Made by a program: the position numbers and the translations under genes. Positions 5,947-10,852 of a stretch of 24,364 nucleotides of DNA are shown here, in pieces (the stretch's first letter is position 1; the number at the start of each line of letters is the position of its first letter). The notes below the pieces were generated by a model that was not told the DNA's origin, ran no database searches, and saw nothing but the letters and a program-made list of their open reading frames with translations. This stretch comes from a virus: positions 1 to 24,364 of the IMG/VR virus record IMGVR_UViG_3300047471_000250; one strand, given 5' to 3'.

Positions 5947-6505
5947 TCAGCGGTAACCCAAGCAGCTTCGAGAACTGACAGGCCACTGCCCCAGCAACCA
6001 AGCCTCCGAATAGCCCGACTGGCGGTACCCGGTTTCCGCCGCTGCCATCTGCTGCTCGGGTGAGAGCAGGGCTGCGTTGCCGACGAGGCCGTCCCAGCCA
6101 TAGGTCATTTGCAGCCCGCCGTAGTAGCCGTTCCCTGTGTTCGCGTTCCATGCTCCTTCTCCGTTATGTATGCAGGTCCAGAGGGCGTAATGCAGTCCAG
6201 AGCTCCCAGGCGGCGAACTCGGCACGGGACGCGCTGAGGCCGTTGCGACGAAAGATGTCGGCTGTGATGCGGAGTATGAGATCGCTCGCGCTCTCTCCTT
6301 GACTCGCTGGATAGCTGCGAGCCGCCTCGAGGCCGACACGTACAACAAACGGCGTCGATCCCTGCGAATCGCGTGCCGGCGGAGTTTCACGTCCGCCCGG
6401 ATCGTGTAGTGGTGCCTGATCGCCGGCACTCTTGGCGAGGTCGATGATGCGCTGATCGAAAGGCTGGTTGCTGCGGCTAGTAGGGTCAGGATTATGAGAG
6501 GCCAT
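5947..6505 (-). CDS. Secreted RPF-like transglycosylase (lysozyme fold), start codon out of frame
   Basis: About 185 aa. A signal-anchor (PLIILTLLAAATSLSISASS), a basic linker (about residues 30-95, with RRDRRRLLYVSASRRLAA) and a C-terminal domain: WTCIHNGEGAWNANTGNGYY, then GGLQMTYGWDGL and SPEQQMAAAETGYRQSGYSE. This is the resuscitation-promoting-factor/transglycosylase-like domain; E in NGEG is the expected catalytic acid that cuts glycan strands. No ATG, GTG or TTG stands in frame just before the signal. An ATG at 6503-6505 with AGGAAAGGGA upstream is one base out of phase; removing one G of ATGG gives M-P-L-I-I-L. Likely a 1-base insertion or assembly error. The interval is therefore not a multiple of three. 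Confidence 0.68.
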
Positions 6506-6710
6506 CTGAATACGATCCCTTTCCTTTCCTCGACAGCGCGTCCTCGGGAGTTTCCCGGCTTGCGTTTGCGTTCCGGTTCGGTTGCACCTCTGGCAGCTCG
6601 CGTCCCAGCCAATGCACCGGCCCCTGGCCTGAGTAGCAACCCATCTCTATCGTCATTAGGCCGTCGTAGTAGATGTTGTCGAGTGAACACCAGACGGTTG
6701 TGCCGCTCAT
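6492..6710 (-). CDS. 72-aa hypothetical protein
   Basis: 72 aa beginning MSGTTVWCSLDNIYYDGLMT and ending in a polar basic stretch (SRKGKGSYSDGLS). The first three residues come from the junction repeat. The last dozen codons overlap the 5' end of the RPF-like gene. No family recognised. Codon choice in the last 40 bases is less GC-rich, which may reflect the ribosome site of the next gene (AGGAAAGGGA). Confidence 0.5.
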   Translation of the reverse strand: MSGTTVWCSLDNIYYDGLMTIEMGCYSGQGPVHWLGRELPEVQPNRNANASRETPEDALSRKGKGSYSDGLS

Positions 6711-6734
6711 GTGTCCTCGCTCGGCGTACCAGCA
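6702..6734 (-). repeat. LAGTPSED / ATGAGCGGC junction repeat, copy 1
   Basis: 33 bases at the end of paralog B and the start of the 72-aa gene. 32 of 33 bases equal copy 3, and the ATGAGCGGC start of the following gene is included. Confidence 0.75.
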
Positions 6735-7210
6735 GGCCATTCCACGAACCTCTCGCCCAGCGCCTCATCTTGTGACAGGCAGCGTTCATAGTGGGCATCA
6801 CGCTCGGCAGCGGTCGGGAACTGCGAGTCACAGATCGAGCACTTCATCAGTACGTCGGTGTCCTCGCTCGGCGTACCGGCCAAAGCAGCGCGATCGTCAT
6901 GCAGGGCCTCGTCCCACGAATTCAGCGACACAGCGACGGCTGAGTCGCCTCCGGTGTTGTCGAGCCGCTGCGCCTTGTCGATCGCGGCGTACCAGAACTC
7001 TAGCGCGTCTCGTAGTTGCCTAGTCTCCTTGTCCGCCTTCTCCCATTGTGATATGGCATCAAGTCTTTCGTCGCGTAGCCGCTGTTTCTCCGCCACAAGC
7101 GCGTCCAGAGCATCCAGTCCTTCCTGAGCAGCGGGGCGCTCGAAGCGCCCATAGCGGATCAGTCCTAGCTGATTCAACACGCGGCGGATGGTGTCGGCCT
7201 GGCCGCTCAT
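6707..7210 (-). CDS. Coiled-coil protein, paralog B, with added zinc finger
   Basis: 167 aa. Starts MSGQADTIRRVLNQLGLIRY, has a long helix (VAEKQRLRDERLDAISQWEK) and at about residue 109 reads RAALAGTPSEDT, where its paralog at 7716-7988 ends. Here the frame continues with DVLMKCSICDSQFPTAA and AHYERC, a C-x2-C-x12-H-x3-C zinc finger, and ends again with AGTPSEDT. So a zinc-finger segment has been joined through a second copy of the repeat. Function unknown; the finger could bind DNA or protein. ATG start in an ATGA overlap; its stop overlaps the next ATG in the same way. Confidence 0.65.
   Translation of the reverse strand: MSGQADTIRRVLNQLGLIRYGRFERPAAQEGLDALDALVAEKQRLRDERLDAISQWEKADKETRQLRDALEFWYAAIDKAQRLDNTGGDSAVAVSLNSWDEALHDDRAALAGTPSEDTDVLMKCSICDSQFPTAAERDAHYERCLSQDEALGERFVEWPAGTPSEDT
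6858..6892 (-). repeat. LAGTPSED repeat, copy 2 (internal)
   Basis: 35 bases inside the paralog B gene encoding RAALAGTPSEDT, at the point where the paralog A protein ends. It matches copy 4 at 34 of 35 bases and marks the fusion point before the zinc finger. Confidence 0.75.
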
Positions 7211-7234
7211 GTGTCCTCGCTCGGCGTACCGGCA
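7202..7234 (-). repeat. LAGTPSED / ATGAGCGGC junction repeat, copy 3
   Basis: 33 bases spanning the 3' end of the GNAT-like gene and the first codons of the next gene (M-S-G). It matches copy 1 (6702-6734) at 32 of 33 bases, including the ATGA overlap. Confidence 0.75.
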
Positions 7235-7719
7235 AGATCGAACTGCTTGTGAAGGAGCGTCTTTTTGTCGTCCGCCGAACGACCGATGACATTCCAGCCG
7301 GCCATCTTGAAGCAGTAGCCGGGGTTTGCCGAGACGACCCTCTTATCCCAGACGTAGGTGAGCATCCCGTCCGGGCCGCAGCCACGGTCTAGCTCTCTGA
7401 GTTCTAGTTCGGCGCGAAGGATGAGCAGACTCGACCGCACATTCCCGGTATTGCGGAAGATCGTGCAAGTCCAACCGTCCAAGCCATTCATGGCCTTTAA
7501 GCCGCTGGCGGGATGTGGACGCCACCAACCGAACAGCGCGCGACCATCCCCCGAGAGCAGGTTCAGCGTCTCGCCGGGGGGCATCCATTGGAGCGAGCCG
7601 ACCTTGCGTCGGCTGTAATGCTCGTCGGCAAGAGCAGCCCCTCGCGGATCGAACTTGTGGATCCGTTCCCACTCATCGGCAGGGATAGGAAGGCACGTCT
7701 GTTGGCCCACTGCGATCAT
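7207..7719 (-). CDS. GNAT-like protein of the phage HYSRR/NPGYCF type
   Basis: 170 aa. Motifs in order: ALADEHYSRRKVGSLQWMPP (29-48), LLSGDGRALFGWW, GWTCTIFRNTGNVRSSLLIL (81-100), MLTYVWDKRVVSANPGYCFK and MAGWNVIGRS. The FRNxGxxxSS segment sits where GNAT enzymes bind acetyl-CoA, and the TYV...NPGYCFKMAGW ending parallels TYT...AGW in the XF1762-like gene at 9098-9616. The family recurs in phages, often unnamed. The last ten codons, DLAGTPSEDT, are the shared repeat (copy 3) and are probably an added tail rather than part of the fold. ATG in an ATGA overlap. Confidence 0.62.
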   Translation of the reverse strand: MIAVGQQTCLPIPADEWERIHKFDPRGAALADEHYSRRKVGSLQWMPPGETLNLLSGDGRALFGWWRPHPASGLKAMNGLDGWTCTIFRNTGNVRSSLLILRAELELRELDRGCGPDGMLTYVWDKRVVSANPGYCFKMAGWNVIGRSADDKKTLLHKQFDLAGTPSEDT

Positions 7720-7988
7720 CCGGTGGCCTCGCTCGGCGTACCGGCCAAAGCAGCGCGCGCGATGTCCTTCATGGCTCCCGCGATCTGACCTCCATACCGC
7801 ACCTCGACGCGTCCTGCTGCGTCGATCTGTTCCAGCGCGTCGCGTAGTTGTTGGTTCTCCGCCACAAGCTCCGGGATCGCCAGTAACACATCGACAGCTT
7901 CCTCCGCTTCCTGTGGCGTAAATCTCCGCAGCGAACAGATAGCCGAGAGGCGGTCAGCTTCAAGGATGGTGTCGGCGTGGCCGCTCAT
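7716..7988 (-). CDS. 90-aa coiled-coil protein, paralog A (MSGHADTI...LAGTPSEATG)
   Basis: 90 aa. It starts MSGHADTILEADRLSAICSL, has a central helix PELVAENQQLRDALEQIDAA with coiled-coil heptads, and ends IARAALAGTPSEATG. The protein at 6707-7210 starts MSGQADTI, has the same QxLRD-type helix and contains AALAGTPSEDT, so the two are paralogs from a duplication. The first 25 bases of both genes match at 24 positions. Function unknown; coiled-coil phage proteins of this shape are common in early regions. The ATG start is in an ATGA overlap with copy B of the methyltransferase end. Confidence 0.62.
   Translation of the reverse strand: MSGHADTILEADRLSAICSLRRFTPQEAEEAVDVLLAIPELVAENQQLRDALEQIDAAGRVEVRYGGQIAGAMKDIARAALAGTPSEATG
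7723..7757 (-). repeat. LAGTPSE repeat, copy 4
   Basis: 35 bases at the 3' end of the 90-aa gene, encoding RAALAGTPSEAT. It matches copy 2 (6858-6892) at 34 of 35 bases. Confidence 0.75.
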
Positions 7989-8042
7989 GCGGGCACCCGG
8001 CCTGCGCTGCGAGCCATGTCGAGCAACAGGGTCACCAACGCT
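7985..8042 (-). repeat. Copy B of the methyltransferase-like 3' end
   Basis: Encodes ALVTLLLDMARSAGRVPA and a TGA that overlaps the next gene's ATG (7988) as ATGA, the junction type used across the operon. It is in a different frame from the long methyltransferase ORF. It looks like the original gene end, now separated from its body by about 360 bases holding the plus-strand gene. Confidence 0.6.
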
Positions 8043-8997
8043 CACCGTTTCCGTCGGGATAGCCAAAGAGGCTAGTCGCCTCGTCATTCTCATAGACGTG
8101 GAGAACCGGGGCCGTGGAGGGGAGGAAAGTGTCACCGTCCCTACCCTCGCAATCGGCCCCGGAAGATGGTAGTGTCGCAGGTGTCACCGTCCCATAGGAG
8201 GAAACATGCCCCGTACCATCCTCATCCACCTGAACGTCGAAGTCCCCGAAAGTAGGATCACCGCCGACGAGATCGGTGACTTCGTTCTCGGCGCGCTCGA
8301 AGTCGGGTTGGAAGGCGCCCCCGGATCGCTCGCCTCCGGCAACACTCTTGAGATCAGAAATCTCAAGGTGTGCTGCGCGCTGGTAGACGAAGTCTAAGCC
8401 TGTACCCGTCGCGTTCCGCGCCATGTCGAGTAGGACGTCGCGGAACGCTGGCGGCGTCGGCATAGTCAGACGTTTACGCTCAGTCTCCGACGGCCCGAAT
8501 AATGGGTTCTTTACCGTAGGCGCGTACCTTCGGGGGAGAATGATGCCTGGGCCTTCGCCCCATTTCATAGCCGGCGGATCGGTGCCCACGCAGTAGAGCC
8601 ATGTTGGCTTCTTTAGAGTGTGTCCATACCAGCCCTGGTCGATCCAGCATGACCATCCCCCATCGTCAAGGGTCCCCACCCATCCACCTCCGCGGGTCGG
8701 TATAGGGAGACCGAAGGTTCGGAAGGCCGCTGAGTGGGCGGGATGCTCGAGGACGCCACCCCATTTCCGTACCGCGTTGAGTGCGGCCTCGAAGCAGCCC
8801 CCATCGTCCCCCCGCTTGTAGCCGTAACGTGTCTCAATCATTCCTGCGAGGATGCTCCACCGGGCGCAGGGCGGGTGTGCGACGACCGGCCACGGCCCCG
8901 CATACAACCGCGCATCACGCTCCTCATCCCAAGGGTCTACGTCGGGGAGGCCGTAGTAGACGCCGTTGGTTTCGACGTAGAGGGCGGCGACGGTCAC
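8032..8997 (-). CDS. Degenerate DNA methyltransferase-like protein with altered C-terminus
   Basis: 321 codons from the GTG at 8997. The core (about residues 1-200) has VVAHPPCARWSILAG (38-52), a P-P-C motif like motif IV of cytosine-5 methyltransferases, and GGVLEHPAHSAAFRTFG (80-96), in the place of motif VI. Later come WSCWIDQGWYGHTLKKPTWL and GPSETERKRLTMPTPPAFRD. No clear glycine-rich SAM motif I is visible, so activity is uncertain. After VLLDMARNATG (188-198) the frame runs antisense through the plus-strand gene at 8206-8397 and stops at 8032. That last third is probably not native: a second copy of the natural-looking end, LLLDMARSAGRVPA and a stop, lies at 7985-8042 in another frame. 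Confidence 0.55.
   Translation of the reverse strand: MTVAALYVETNGVYYGLPDVDPWDEERDARLYAGPWPVVAHPPCARWSILAGMIETRYGYKRGDDGGCFEAALNAVRKWGGVLEHPAHSAAFRTFGLPIPTRGGGWVGTLDDGGWSCWIDQGWYGHTLKKPTWLYCVGTDPPAMKWGEGPGIILPRRYAPTVKNPLFGPSETERKRLTMPTPPAFRDVLLDMARNATGTGLDFVYQRAAHLEISDLKSVAGGERSGGAFQPDFERAENEVTDLVGGDPTFGDFDVQVDEDGTGHVSSYGTVTPATLPSSGADCEGRDGDTFLPSTAPVLHVYENDEATSLFGYPDGNGERW
8129..8193 (+). repeat. Duplicated 13-base element upstream of the plus-strand gene
   Basis: GTGTCACCGTCCC occurs twice, at 8129-8141 and 8181-8193, 52 bases apart, the second ending just before the AGGAGG ribosome site. Between them is a weak promoter-like pair (TCGCAA at 8147-8152, TAGTGT at 8170-8175, 17-base spacer). 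A repeated element flanking a promoter suggests a regulator-binding site, but the match to a promoter consensus is poor. Confidence 0.4.
8206..8397 (+). CDS. Plus-strand small conserved-type phage protein (moron candidate)
   Basis: 63 aa, the only convincing plus-strand gene in the window. AGGAGG (8196-8201) lies four bases before the ATG. The product MPRTILIHLNVEVPESRITA, then VLGALEVGLEGAPG and NTLEIRNLKVCCALVDEV, is like small proteins common in actinobacteriophages in which an N-terminal strand, an ALEVG helix and a C-terminal strand form a compact alpha/beta fold; function unknown. It lies inside the 3' part of the methyltransferase-like frame on the other strand and is bracketed by two diverged copies of that gene's end. 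It must have its own promoter; only a weak candidate is visible. Confidence 0.68.
   Translation: MPRTILIHLNVEVPESRITADEIGDFVLGALEVGLEGAPGSLASGNTLEIRNLKVCCALVDEV
8398..8452 (-). repeat. Copy A of the methyltransferase-like 3' end
   Basis: Encodes AFRDVLLDMARNATGTG in the gene's frame. It shares the 11-base core CTCGACATGGC, the AGCGTT start and the codon phase with copy B at 7985-8042. It directly abuts the stop codon of the plus-strand gene (8395-8397). Confidence 0.6.
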
Positions 8998-9101
8998 GCG
9001 ATCCACCCCACCAACAGCACGATCCCGATCAGGGTGAGGATGGCGACGCCGAGGACGGCGGCCCAGGCGCCTGCGAGGAGCCAATCAAACTGGCGGCTCA
9101 C
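8994..9101 (-). CDS. 35-aa membrane peptide
   Basis: 35 aa from the GTG at 9101, in a GTGA overlap. Almost all of it is one hydrophobic helix (GAWAAVLGVAILTLIGIVLL) after a polar start MSRQFDWLL. Its stop overlaps the methyltransferase-like gene start as GTGA. The ORF is short, but the exact double coupling supports it. Confidence 0.55.
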   Translation of the reverse strand: MSRQFDWLLAGAWAAVLGVAILTLIGIVLLVGWIA

Positions 9102-9616
9102 GATAGAACCTCTGCGAACAAACCAATGCCAGGAAGTTCCGCCTGTACCGGATCACGGAAACGAACCGACCACCTCGTCTTAGCCTCGTCATGATGCGGA
9201 CGCGTCACGGCGGGAGTTCTGCTTCCATTGTGTGTCCACCAAGATTGGATGCCGTCCTTGTCTCGGTTCCAGCCTGCCGCGCGCAGCGATGCTCCCCCTT
9301 CGCTTTCGAGCGTGTAGGTAAGGATTAGGGAGGCGCCCATCTCTCGTGCGACACGAGCGGAGGCGCCGTAAAGAAACGAGCAAGCGTTTCGTGTTCCATC
9401 GCTCGCCAGTCGGATGACTTCTACTGTCTGTCCGTCATCGTTGTTGCGGTTCGTCGGCCGACCGCAGATAGCGGCTGCCACGATTTGTCCTTCCTGTGTT
9501 GCCCCGAGGCAGTACCAAGCGAATCCGCCAGGAAGAGGTGCGTGGTGCCGATGCCACATGCGGACGCATTCATTGGCCTTCGGGAAAGTGAGGGGAACTA
9601 CGCGGAGACTGCTCAC
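9098..9616 (-). CDS. XF1762-like GNAT-fold protein
   Basis: 172 aa from the GTG at 9616. The order VVPLTFPKANECVRMWHRHH, GFAWYCLGATQEGQIVAAAI with CGRPTNRNN, VEVIRLASDGTRNACSFLYG and ASLILTYTLESEGGASLRAA followed by GW is the pattern of the XF1762 group, phage and prophage proteins with an acetyltransferase-like (GNAT) fold. The GTRNACS segment corresponds to the acetyl-CoA-binding loop, and TYT...GASLRAAGW is the conserved end. The substrate is unknown. A second GNAT-like gene lies at 7207-7719. An upstream extension of the frame is the shadow of the neighbouring gene. Confidence 0.7.
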   Translation of the reverse strand: MSSLRVVPLTFPKANECVRMWHRHHAPLPGGFAWYCLGATQEGQIVAAAICGRPTNRNNDDGQTVEVIRLASDGTRNACSFLYGASARVAREMGASLILTYTLESEGGASLRAAGWNRDKDGIQSWWTHNGSRTPAVTRPHHDEAKTRWSVRFRDPVQAELPGIGLFAEVLS

Positions 9617-9783
9617 TCTTCGCTCGTTTCCTCGATCGGTGGCGCATAGTCGGAGAGGATGAAGCGCACTAGCTCGCGCAGGCTCATGCCGTCCGCCAGC
9701 GCGTAGCCAAGTAGCCGCTGCGCGACGACCGGGTTCACGCCGAGACGCGAGAGGTGCGTGAGCGCCCGATCGTCGGCGCTCAT
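9613..9783 (-). CDS. 56-aa helical hypothetical protein
   Basis: 56 aa: SADDRALTHLSRLGVNPVVA and MSLRELVRFILSDYAPP suggest a compact three-helix domain with an HTH-like spacing, but no family could be assigned. The ATG at 9783 lies in an ATGA overlap, and its TGA overlaps the GTG of the next gene. Confidence 0.55.
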   Translation of the reverse strand: MSADDRALTHLSRLGVNPVVAQRLLGYALADGMSLRELVRFILSDYAPPIEETSEE

Positions 9784-9902
9784 TCGTCGTCCCAGACTTC
9801 GTCCAAGAACGCCTCATGGCAAGCGTCGGTCACGTCCACCCACATGGCGACGAGCATCGAGACGAGGAGGGCGAGGATGAGGAGGCCGATGGCGAGGTTC
9901 AT
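9780..9902 (-). CDS. 40-aa single-pass membrane protein
   Basis: 40 aa: a membrane segment right at the N-terminus (MNLAIGLLILALLVSMLVAM) followed by an acidic tail (DACHEAFLDEVWDDE). ATGA overlaps on both sides fix the ends. Tiny early membrane proteins of this design may alter the host membrane or exclude other phages, but nothing in the sequence shows the role. Confidence 0.6.
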   Translation of the reverse strand: MNLAIGLLILALLVSMLVAMWVDVTDACHEAFLDEVWDDE

Positions 9903-10852
9903 TCCGCCGCCTGGAGCTTCGACAACCGATCGATCAACTGGTGGGCCTCACCCTTCGACAACGTCTTGGACAGCGGCCCCCAGTGGAGTTTCCCTGGAAG
10001 CGTGGACTCGGAGGTCCCCGAAGCCACATCTATTTCATCACGGGCATCGGGCAACGCAGCCGCGAGATCGTCCGGGTCTACATCGCGCATCAGACCGACA
10101 GAGTGATAGAGCTGCTCCGTCGTGATCTTCCCCGCGTCCCGCAGTTCCACGACGAGCAGGTTCAGCTTCGTCGACGCAGCCTTGGTCGGTGTTTCGCCGG
10201 ATGTGTGGCTCTCCTTGAAGATGTCTTCGAACGTCTCGCCCGGCAACTCAGTCTTCTGAGCTGCGCGCTTCTTGGGTTCGTCGCGCGGCATCTCCTCCGC
10301 CGGCGTCGGATTGAACCCGGCCAACTGCATCACGAACCCCAATGGCTGACGCAGCGCCTTCGACGTCGCCCTGGTCTGCGCCATCGACCGGAGCGCGTAG
10401 TCGTCGCGAGGGGAAAGTTTCTGTCCATTCTTTCCAGTGGGCTCCCATGACCACTGGTTCTCGTCGCGCGTGCATTGAGACTCCGCAGCGCCGACGACCT
10501 CGCCAGACCTCGTATGAGCCTCTACTCGAGCTTCCCAGCCGAACTCGCGGTCATCGCGCATGAGCTGGCGCGTCCACACACAGACGGGGAACACACCAAG
10601 CATCGAACCGAGTAGCGTCCATCCTTCTACGCGGACGTGCTCGCTGGGGCCGATCTTGACGCTGAGTTTTTGTTTGCGGATGACGTCGACGAGCGGGATG
10701 GCTGCTGCTCGAGCCGCCTCTACAACCCCGGCGGGGTCGTTGGTGCCGAACAGCGAGACGGTGGTGGGTGGCTGGTAGGGGACGAGTTCACCCGTGCCGC
10801 CGTCAAACGATGCGCCGGGTTCGATGATTTTGCTTTGGACGAGGTCGGTCAT
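9899..10852 (-). CDS. Probable ssDNA annealing / recombination protein
   Basis: 317 aa. The middle of the protein (residues 60-180) has a conserved-looking core: HVRVEGWTLLGSMLGVFPVC, then a strand with EARVEAHTRSGEVVGAAESQ, then the motif DYALRSMAQTRATSKALRQP followed by LAGFNPTPAEEMP. This SMAQTRA-type helix with a downstream AEEM resembles the one found in phage and plasmid annealing-type proteins (Rad52/RecT/ERF superfamily), which pair single strands. The C-terminal third is a charged linker plus small helices. An Hjc-type resolvase and a RecA-fold ATPase lie further along the same operon, which fits recombination. The family call is by motif only. Confidence 0.5.
   Translation of the reverse strand: MTDLVQSKIIEPGASFDGGTGELVPYQPPTTVSLFGTNDPAGVVEAARAAAIPLVDVIRKQKLSVKIGPSEHVRVEGWTLLGSMLGVFPVCVWTRQLMRDDREFGWEARVEAHTRSGEVVGAAESQCTRDENQWSWEPTGKNGQKLSPRDDYALRSMAQTRATSKALRQPLGFVMQLAGFNPTPAEEMPRDEPKKRAAQKTELPGETFEDIFKESHTSGETPTKAASTKLNLLVVELRDAGKITTEQLYHSVGLMRDVDPDDLAAALPDARDEIDVASGTSESTLPGKLHWGPLSKTLSKGEAHQLIDRLSKLQAAE

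Follow-up and report, generated by a model that had tools for sequence, protein, structure and literature searches.

The window, that is, the whole stretch of 24,364 nucleotides analysed here (IMG/VR virus record IMGVR_UViG_3300047471_000250), carries on its minus strand a methyltransferase-like gene (core at 8398-8997, phrog_12600) in which the motifs HPPC and GGxxEHP are invariant. No Pfam match was obtained for this gene, and its best fold matches in the PDB, M.HaeIII and DNMTs, are weak (E about 4e-3, TM 0.25-0.30); judged from its predicted fold, the interrupted gene would weakly resemble C5 methyltransferases, and it is best called methyltransferase-like. Just upstream of it, at 9101-9817, lies a Mom-like DNA modification gene (phrog_1384, E=8e-28). 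Elsewhere among the minus-strand genes, a repeat of 33-37 nt is found at 6702-6734, 6849-6881, 7202-7234 and 7714-7746, as well as in two related phages, L008 and L012. This repeat encodes the C-terminal tag LAGTPSEDT-stop, or one close to it, ends successive genes and overlaps the start of the following one, and could represent a common gene-end module that favours the exchange of genes. In addition, two minus-strand genes share the same MSG-ADT start (7186-7211 and 7964-7989; 26 nt, 96%) and a common LVAE-QLRD stretch, which suggests a duplicated small gene.

Two ends of the methyltransferase-like gene are present in the window, with a small plus-strand gene between them. Copy 1, the C-terminal coding end of the gene itself (8398-8459, minus strand, TPPAFRDVLLDMARNA...), reads VLLDMARNATG at 8452-8398, and copy 2 is a second, truncated gene end (7984-8025, minus strand, TGCTCGACATGGCTCGCAGCGCAGGCCGGGTGCCCGCATGAG) that reads LLLDMARSAGRVPA-TGA and finishes at 7985, its stop TGA (7987-7985) overlapping the ATG of the next gene (7988-7986). 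A previous sequence-only reading had described these pieces as the traces of a moron-like insertion, and all of them are found where it had placed them. A family HMM was built from the C-termini of 68 relatives and run on the window in six frames (813 stop-to-stop segments). It recognises both copy 1, at E=6.9e-9, and copy 2, at E=4.7e-5, and no third gene end, the remaining segments giving E values of about 0.5 or worse. It has to be noted that the direct similarity between the two copies (77-85% over 20-22 nt) is unconvincing when taken alone, since an unrelated site at 10992 matches equally well; it is the comparison with relatives that makes the case.

The plus-strand gene comprises 63 codons (MPRTILIHLNVEVPESRITADEIGDFVLGALEVGLEG...LVDEV; 8206-8397, with the stop TAA at 8395-8397) and is the only plus-strand ORF of the window with both a Shine-Dalgarno sequence and a good, phage-like codon usage. 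Its own AGGAGG, already pointed out from the sequence, is located at 8196-8201, and a candidate -10 hexamer, TAGTGT, at 8170-8175, although a consensus scan of the window revealed neither a complete sigma-70 promoter for the gene nor a terminator after it. Upstream, an exact 13-nt direct repeat, GTGTCACCGTCCC, occurs on the plus strand at 8129-8141 and 8181-8193, and could possibly function as an operator pair. The 63-aa protein has no match in Pfam, PHROGs, NCBIfam or PADLOC, nor any structure match, and its predicted structure (pLDDT 65) contains a single helix, at residues 20-37. A homing endonuclease, an intein or a transposase was discarded, no such domain being found in the protein in those four collections.

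Two of the 80 loci related to the methyltransferase-like gene in IMG/VR, L008 and L012, are syntenic with the window over the greater part of the sequence retrieved, the matching blocks having nucleotide identities of about 70-94%. Both lack the segment 8026-8393 (about 368 bp), which lies between the two gene ends in the window, and in both the end of the methyltransferase-like gene is uninterrupted, running directly to ...FRDVLLDMARSAGRVTA-stop with an ATGA overlap onto the next gene. The empty site of the insertion is directly observed in these two phages, and they correspond to the insert-free relative that had been predicted, their methyltransferase core being joined in frame to an AGRV-T/P-A-stop end with ATGA coupling. 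The arrangement of the window recurs almost unchanged, with a single mismatch over 12,189 bp, in another and longer contig, which argues against an assembly slip. In base composition the insert cannot be told apart from its surroundings, and no match to 6500-10000 was obtained when known phages were searched at the DNA level.

Copy 2 shares 41 of 42 nt with the end of the gene in L012 and 34 of 36 with that in L008, and copy 1 is closest to the end found in a different relative, L006 (49 nt, 86%). Thus, copy 2 is the gene end proper to the lineage of the window phage, and copy 1 a different allele. Since copy 2 is the one that matches the syntenic relatives, copy 1 together with the small gene looks like the incoming part; no donor allele carrying both was found outside the window phage. 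The proposal of recombination with a related allele is therefore supported by L008 and L012 and modified as to which part would have arrived. Target-site duplication was rejected, because the two flanking gene ends are different alleles, and no support was obtained for regarding the 3' half of the methyltransferase gene as a recombinant block, since that half varies among all relatives. It might also be argued that the two gene ends are look-alikes arisen by chance and that the plus-strand ORF is spurious, taking into account how short their raw similarity is and that another site of the window matches copy 2 equally. This explanation is already refuted by the relatives and retains practically no probability: copy 2 is nearly identical to the end of L012 and is recognised by the HMM, syntenic relatives lack the insert, and a homologous small gene exists elsewhere.

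From just after the arginine codon of DMAR to the end of the stop there are 24 nt in L006, L008 and L012 and 22 nt in copy 1. According to the alignment, the window gene appears to retain its own TAG stop (8394-8396, minus strand), which overlaps the TAA of the small gene. Copy 1 being 2 nt shorter than the ends of its relatives, this stop falls out of frame, and the reading frame would consequently stay open for about 120 further codons, facing the small gene. This read-through tail (8035-8393, minus strand) has no homolog, and AlphaFold models it with low confidence, most of the core being above 90. A tail of this kind is present in no relative, all homologs stopping 15-41 residues past the start of the conserved TPxxF motif; conservation of the last third of the 321-codon methyltransferase ORF, named beforehand as evidence that would speak against an insertion, is seen in no relative. 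The long antisense tail described by the sequence-only reading does exist and would arise by a 2-nt shortening that shifts the gene's own stop, and copy 1 extends beyond 8452-8398, as far as the out-of-frame TAG at 8396-8394. A shift of reading frame can in this way hide the true end of a gene, automated annotation then reporting a false 320-residue protein.

The 63-aa protein is not devoid of homologs, whose absence had likewise been named beforehand as evidence against an insertion. A search of 2.9 million viral contigs yielded one relative, of 47 codons, at 6001-6144 of the contig L004, with 63% identity over the first 31 residues. Scans with degenerate patterns for further family members returned the same two phages only; a protein search of known phages with both small proteins gave nothing credible, and no member of the family was found in 85,000 prokaryote genomes. 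DNA similarity between the window and L004 starts at the -10-like hexamer (TAGAGT in L004), continues through the Shine-Dalgarno sequence (AAAGGAGC at the matching place in L004) into the gene, and covers the gene plus 36 bp upstream, the homologous part being only about 180-230 bp and differing in length between the two phages. The -10, the Shine-Dalgarno sequence, the start and the stop are all kept, and in L004 a -35 (TTGACT) situated 16 bp upstream of TAGAGT completes a full -35/-10. A scan for the shared promoter-leader motif gave three extra matches; no relative of the small gene comes after any of them, and they are read as chance.

In L004, the small gene lies antisense inside a cytosine-methyltransferase gene (phrog_363), adjoined by a phrog_67 methyltransferase. 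The protein encoded by the former has an extra in-frame loop of about 60 residues between the motifs ADAL and AIHASPPCQ, absent from 19 aligned relatives, the loop being encoded by the strand antisense to the small gene. No other DNA common to the window and the 12 kb fetched for L004 was detected by blastn. On this basis, L004 is an unrelated phage with an unrelated gene context, and provides a second, independent landing site of the small gene. The 9-mer AGCCTGTAC is found at 8397-8405 of the window and at 6151-6159 of L004, where it follows or overlaps the stop of the small gene at a slightly different distance, and it could be due to chance or be a recombination microhomology. The possibility that the window segment was lifted from a cytosine-methyltransferase gene was rejected, as there is no trace of such a gene in the window and the 9-mer common to both phages is, by itself, too weak an argument.

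The minus frame opposite the small gene is open in both phages and in frame with a methyltransferase, and its codon score is just slightly below that of the plus frame (14.4 vs 17.2), codon usage alone separating the two frames poorly. It could thus be argued that what is conserved is a stretch of peptide added in frame to methyltransferases, the plus-strand ORF being its shadow. Nevertheless, the substitutions between the window and L004, a single pair, preserve the plus-frame protein (p=0.0023, permutation) and leave the antisense frame at random level (p=0.63); the changes by plus-frame codon position number 13, 13 and 23, third positions changing most; and the Shine-Dalgarno sequence, the ATG and the -10 are kept. 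Moreover, the antisense tail is predicted with low confidence, and the window reaches that frame just because copy 1 is 2 nt short. This explanation is, in consequence, very unlikely.

Both copies of the small gene lie antisense at DNA-methyltransferase-type genes, in the window beside the Mom-like gene and in L004 within phrog_363, beside phrog_67, although a preference cannot be deduced from just two cases. This coincidence would leave room for a small gene whose main action is antisense regulation of the overlapped DNA-modification gene, its protein being secondary. However, the protein is conserved as such, the common location of only two cases may be chance, and the small gene of the window overlaps the true gene end by only a few bases, plus a run-off transcript, so that a mainly regulatory role is rather unlikely. 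Somewhat less likely still is a broader proposal in which a minimal, horizontally moving gene would prefer antisense sites in the DNA-modification genes of phages. Its phase would match an open frame on the reverse strand, allowing the host gene to survive, and the antisense transcript and the small protein would jointly control DNA modification.

The best explanation for this locus is that a moron was inserted by recombination where the methyltransferase-like gene ends, a reading to which we assign a probability of roughly 0.8. Recombination with another phage would have brought to the very end of this gene a foreign gene end and a short autonomous unit on the opposite strand, made up of the candidate -10 box, the ribosome-binding site and the 63-codon gene. 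The lineage's own last 42 bp would have stayed on the far side as copy 2, which still provides the overlap of stop and start that couples the next gene. The short, diverged homology at the junction suits this reading, because phage recombination tolerates divergence (PMC3945230). The small gene would then be transcribed against the operon, from a promoter and with a timing of its own that we infer, giving rise to the small protein, and its transcript, antisense to the methyltransferase mRNA into which it would extend, may dampen the methyltransferase. By analogy with other morons, the job of the protein is most likely an accessory role directed at the host or at rival phages. The moron-like insertion proposed from the sequence is supported by the empty site in L008 and L012 and by the homolog in L004, and the sequence-only reading was, as a whole, right in the main.

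The process is an ordinary and well-documented one, with an unusually traceable history and an orphan gene as its cargo. Insert-free relatives, both gene-end alleles, the stop/start coupling left behind and a second independent landing site make this a rare moron history that can be read base by base. If the antisense-in-methyltransferase location holds as a preference with more examples, it would link such orphan genes to the control of phage DNA modification.

Among known systems, the mycobacteriophage mobile elements MPME1 and MPME2 (439 bp, with the inverted repeats IR-L and IR-R and 6 bp added at insertion; PMC3029335) resemble the window insert (about 370 bp) in being ultra-small insertions with a small ORF, recognisable against an insert-free relative. 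A self-mobile element of this type, or a site-specific cassette, instead of a passive moron, would agree with two occurrences with sharp edges in unrelated phages and genes, with the 9-mer that in both phages adjoins the small gene at its 3' end (chance about 0.002, a rough post hoc estimate) and with the gene-end duplication flanking the insert. Unlike MPME1/2, the window insert lacks terminal inverted repeats and has no constant unit beyond the gene and the 36 bp upstream, its length differing in the two phages; in addition, the flanking duplicates are different alleles and not a fresh target duplication, and just two copies exist in IMG/VR and none in the other collections searched. Self-mobility is, then, improbable. 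Bacterial antisense overlapping genes born by overprinting (PMC4683798) are comparable to L004, where the gene lies wholly antisense within an open methyltransferase frame, but there the loop that holds the small gene is an insertion lacking in relatives, and the gene has a homolog in another phage; transfer would for this reason be a simpler reading than birth on a pre-existing frame.

The closest parallel is the phage moron (PMC2629481). As in morons, a single gene has been inserted into an operon, as seen against two syntenic relatives in which the flanking genes are contiguous (L008 and L012, without 8026-8393), and it has been acquired horizontally in otherwise unrelated phages, its only other copy being in L004. 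It has the opposite orientation, its own AGGAGG and a candidate promoter whose -10, TAGTGT, is conserved with L004, no full consensus promoter or terminator being found in the window. As to insertion, the segment agrees with the moron definition, and we infer its independent expression; the small gene is an orphan moron of unproven function. It differs from described morons in the orphan nature of its protein, in the lack of a detected terminator, and in being placed exactly over the stop codon of a gene, with a second gene-end allele left behind.
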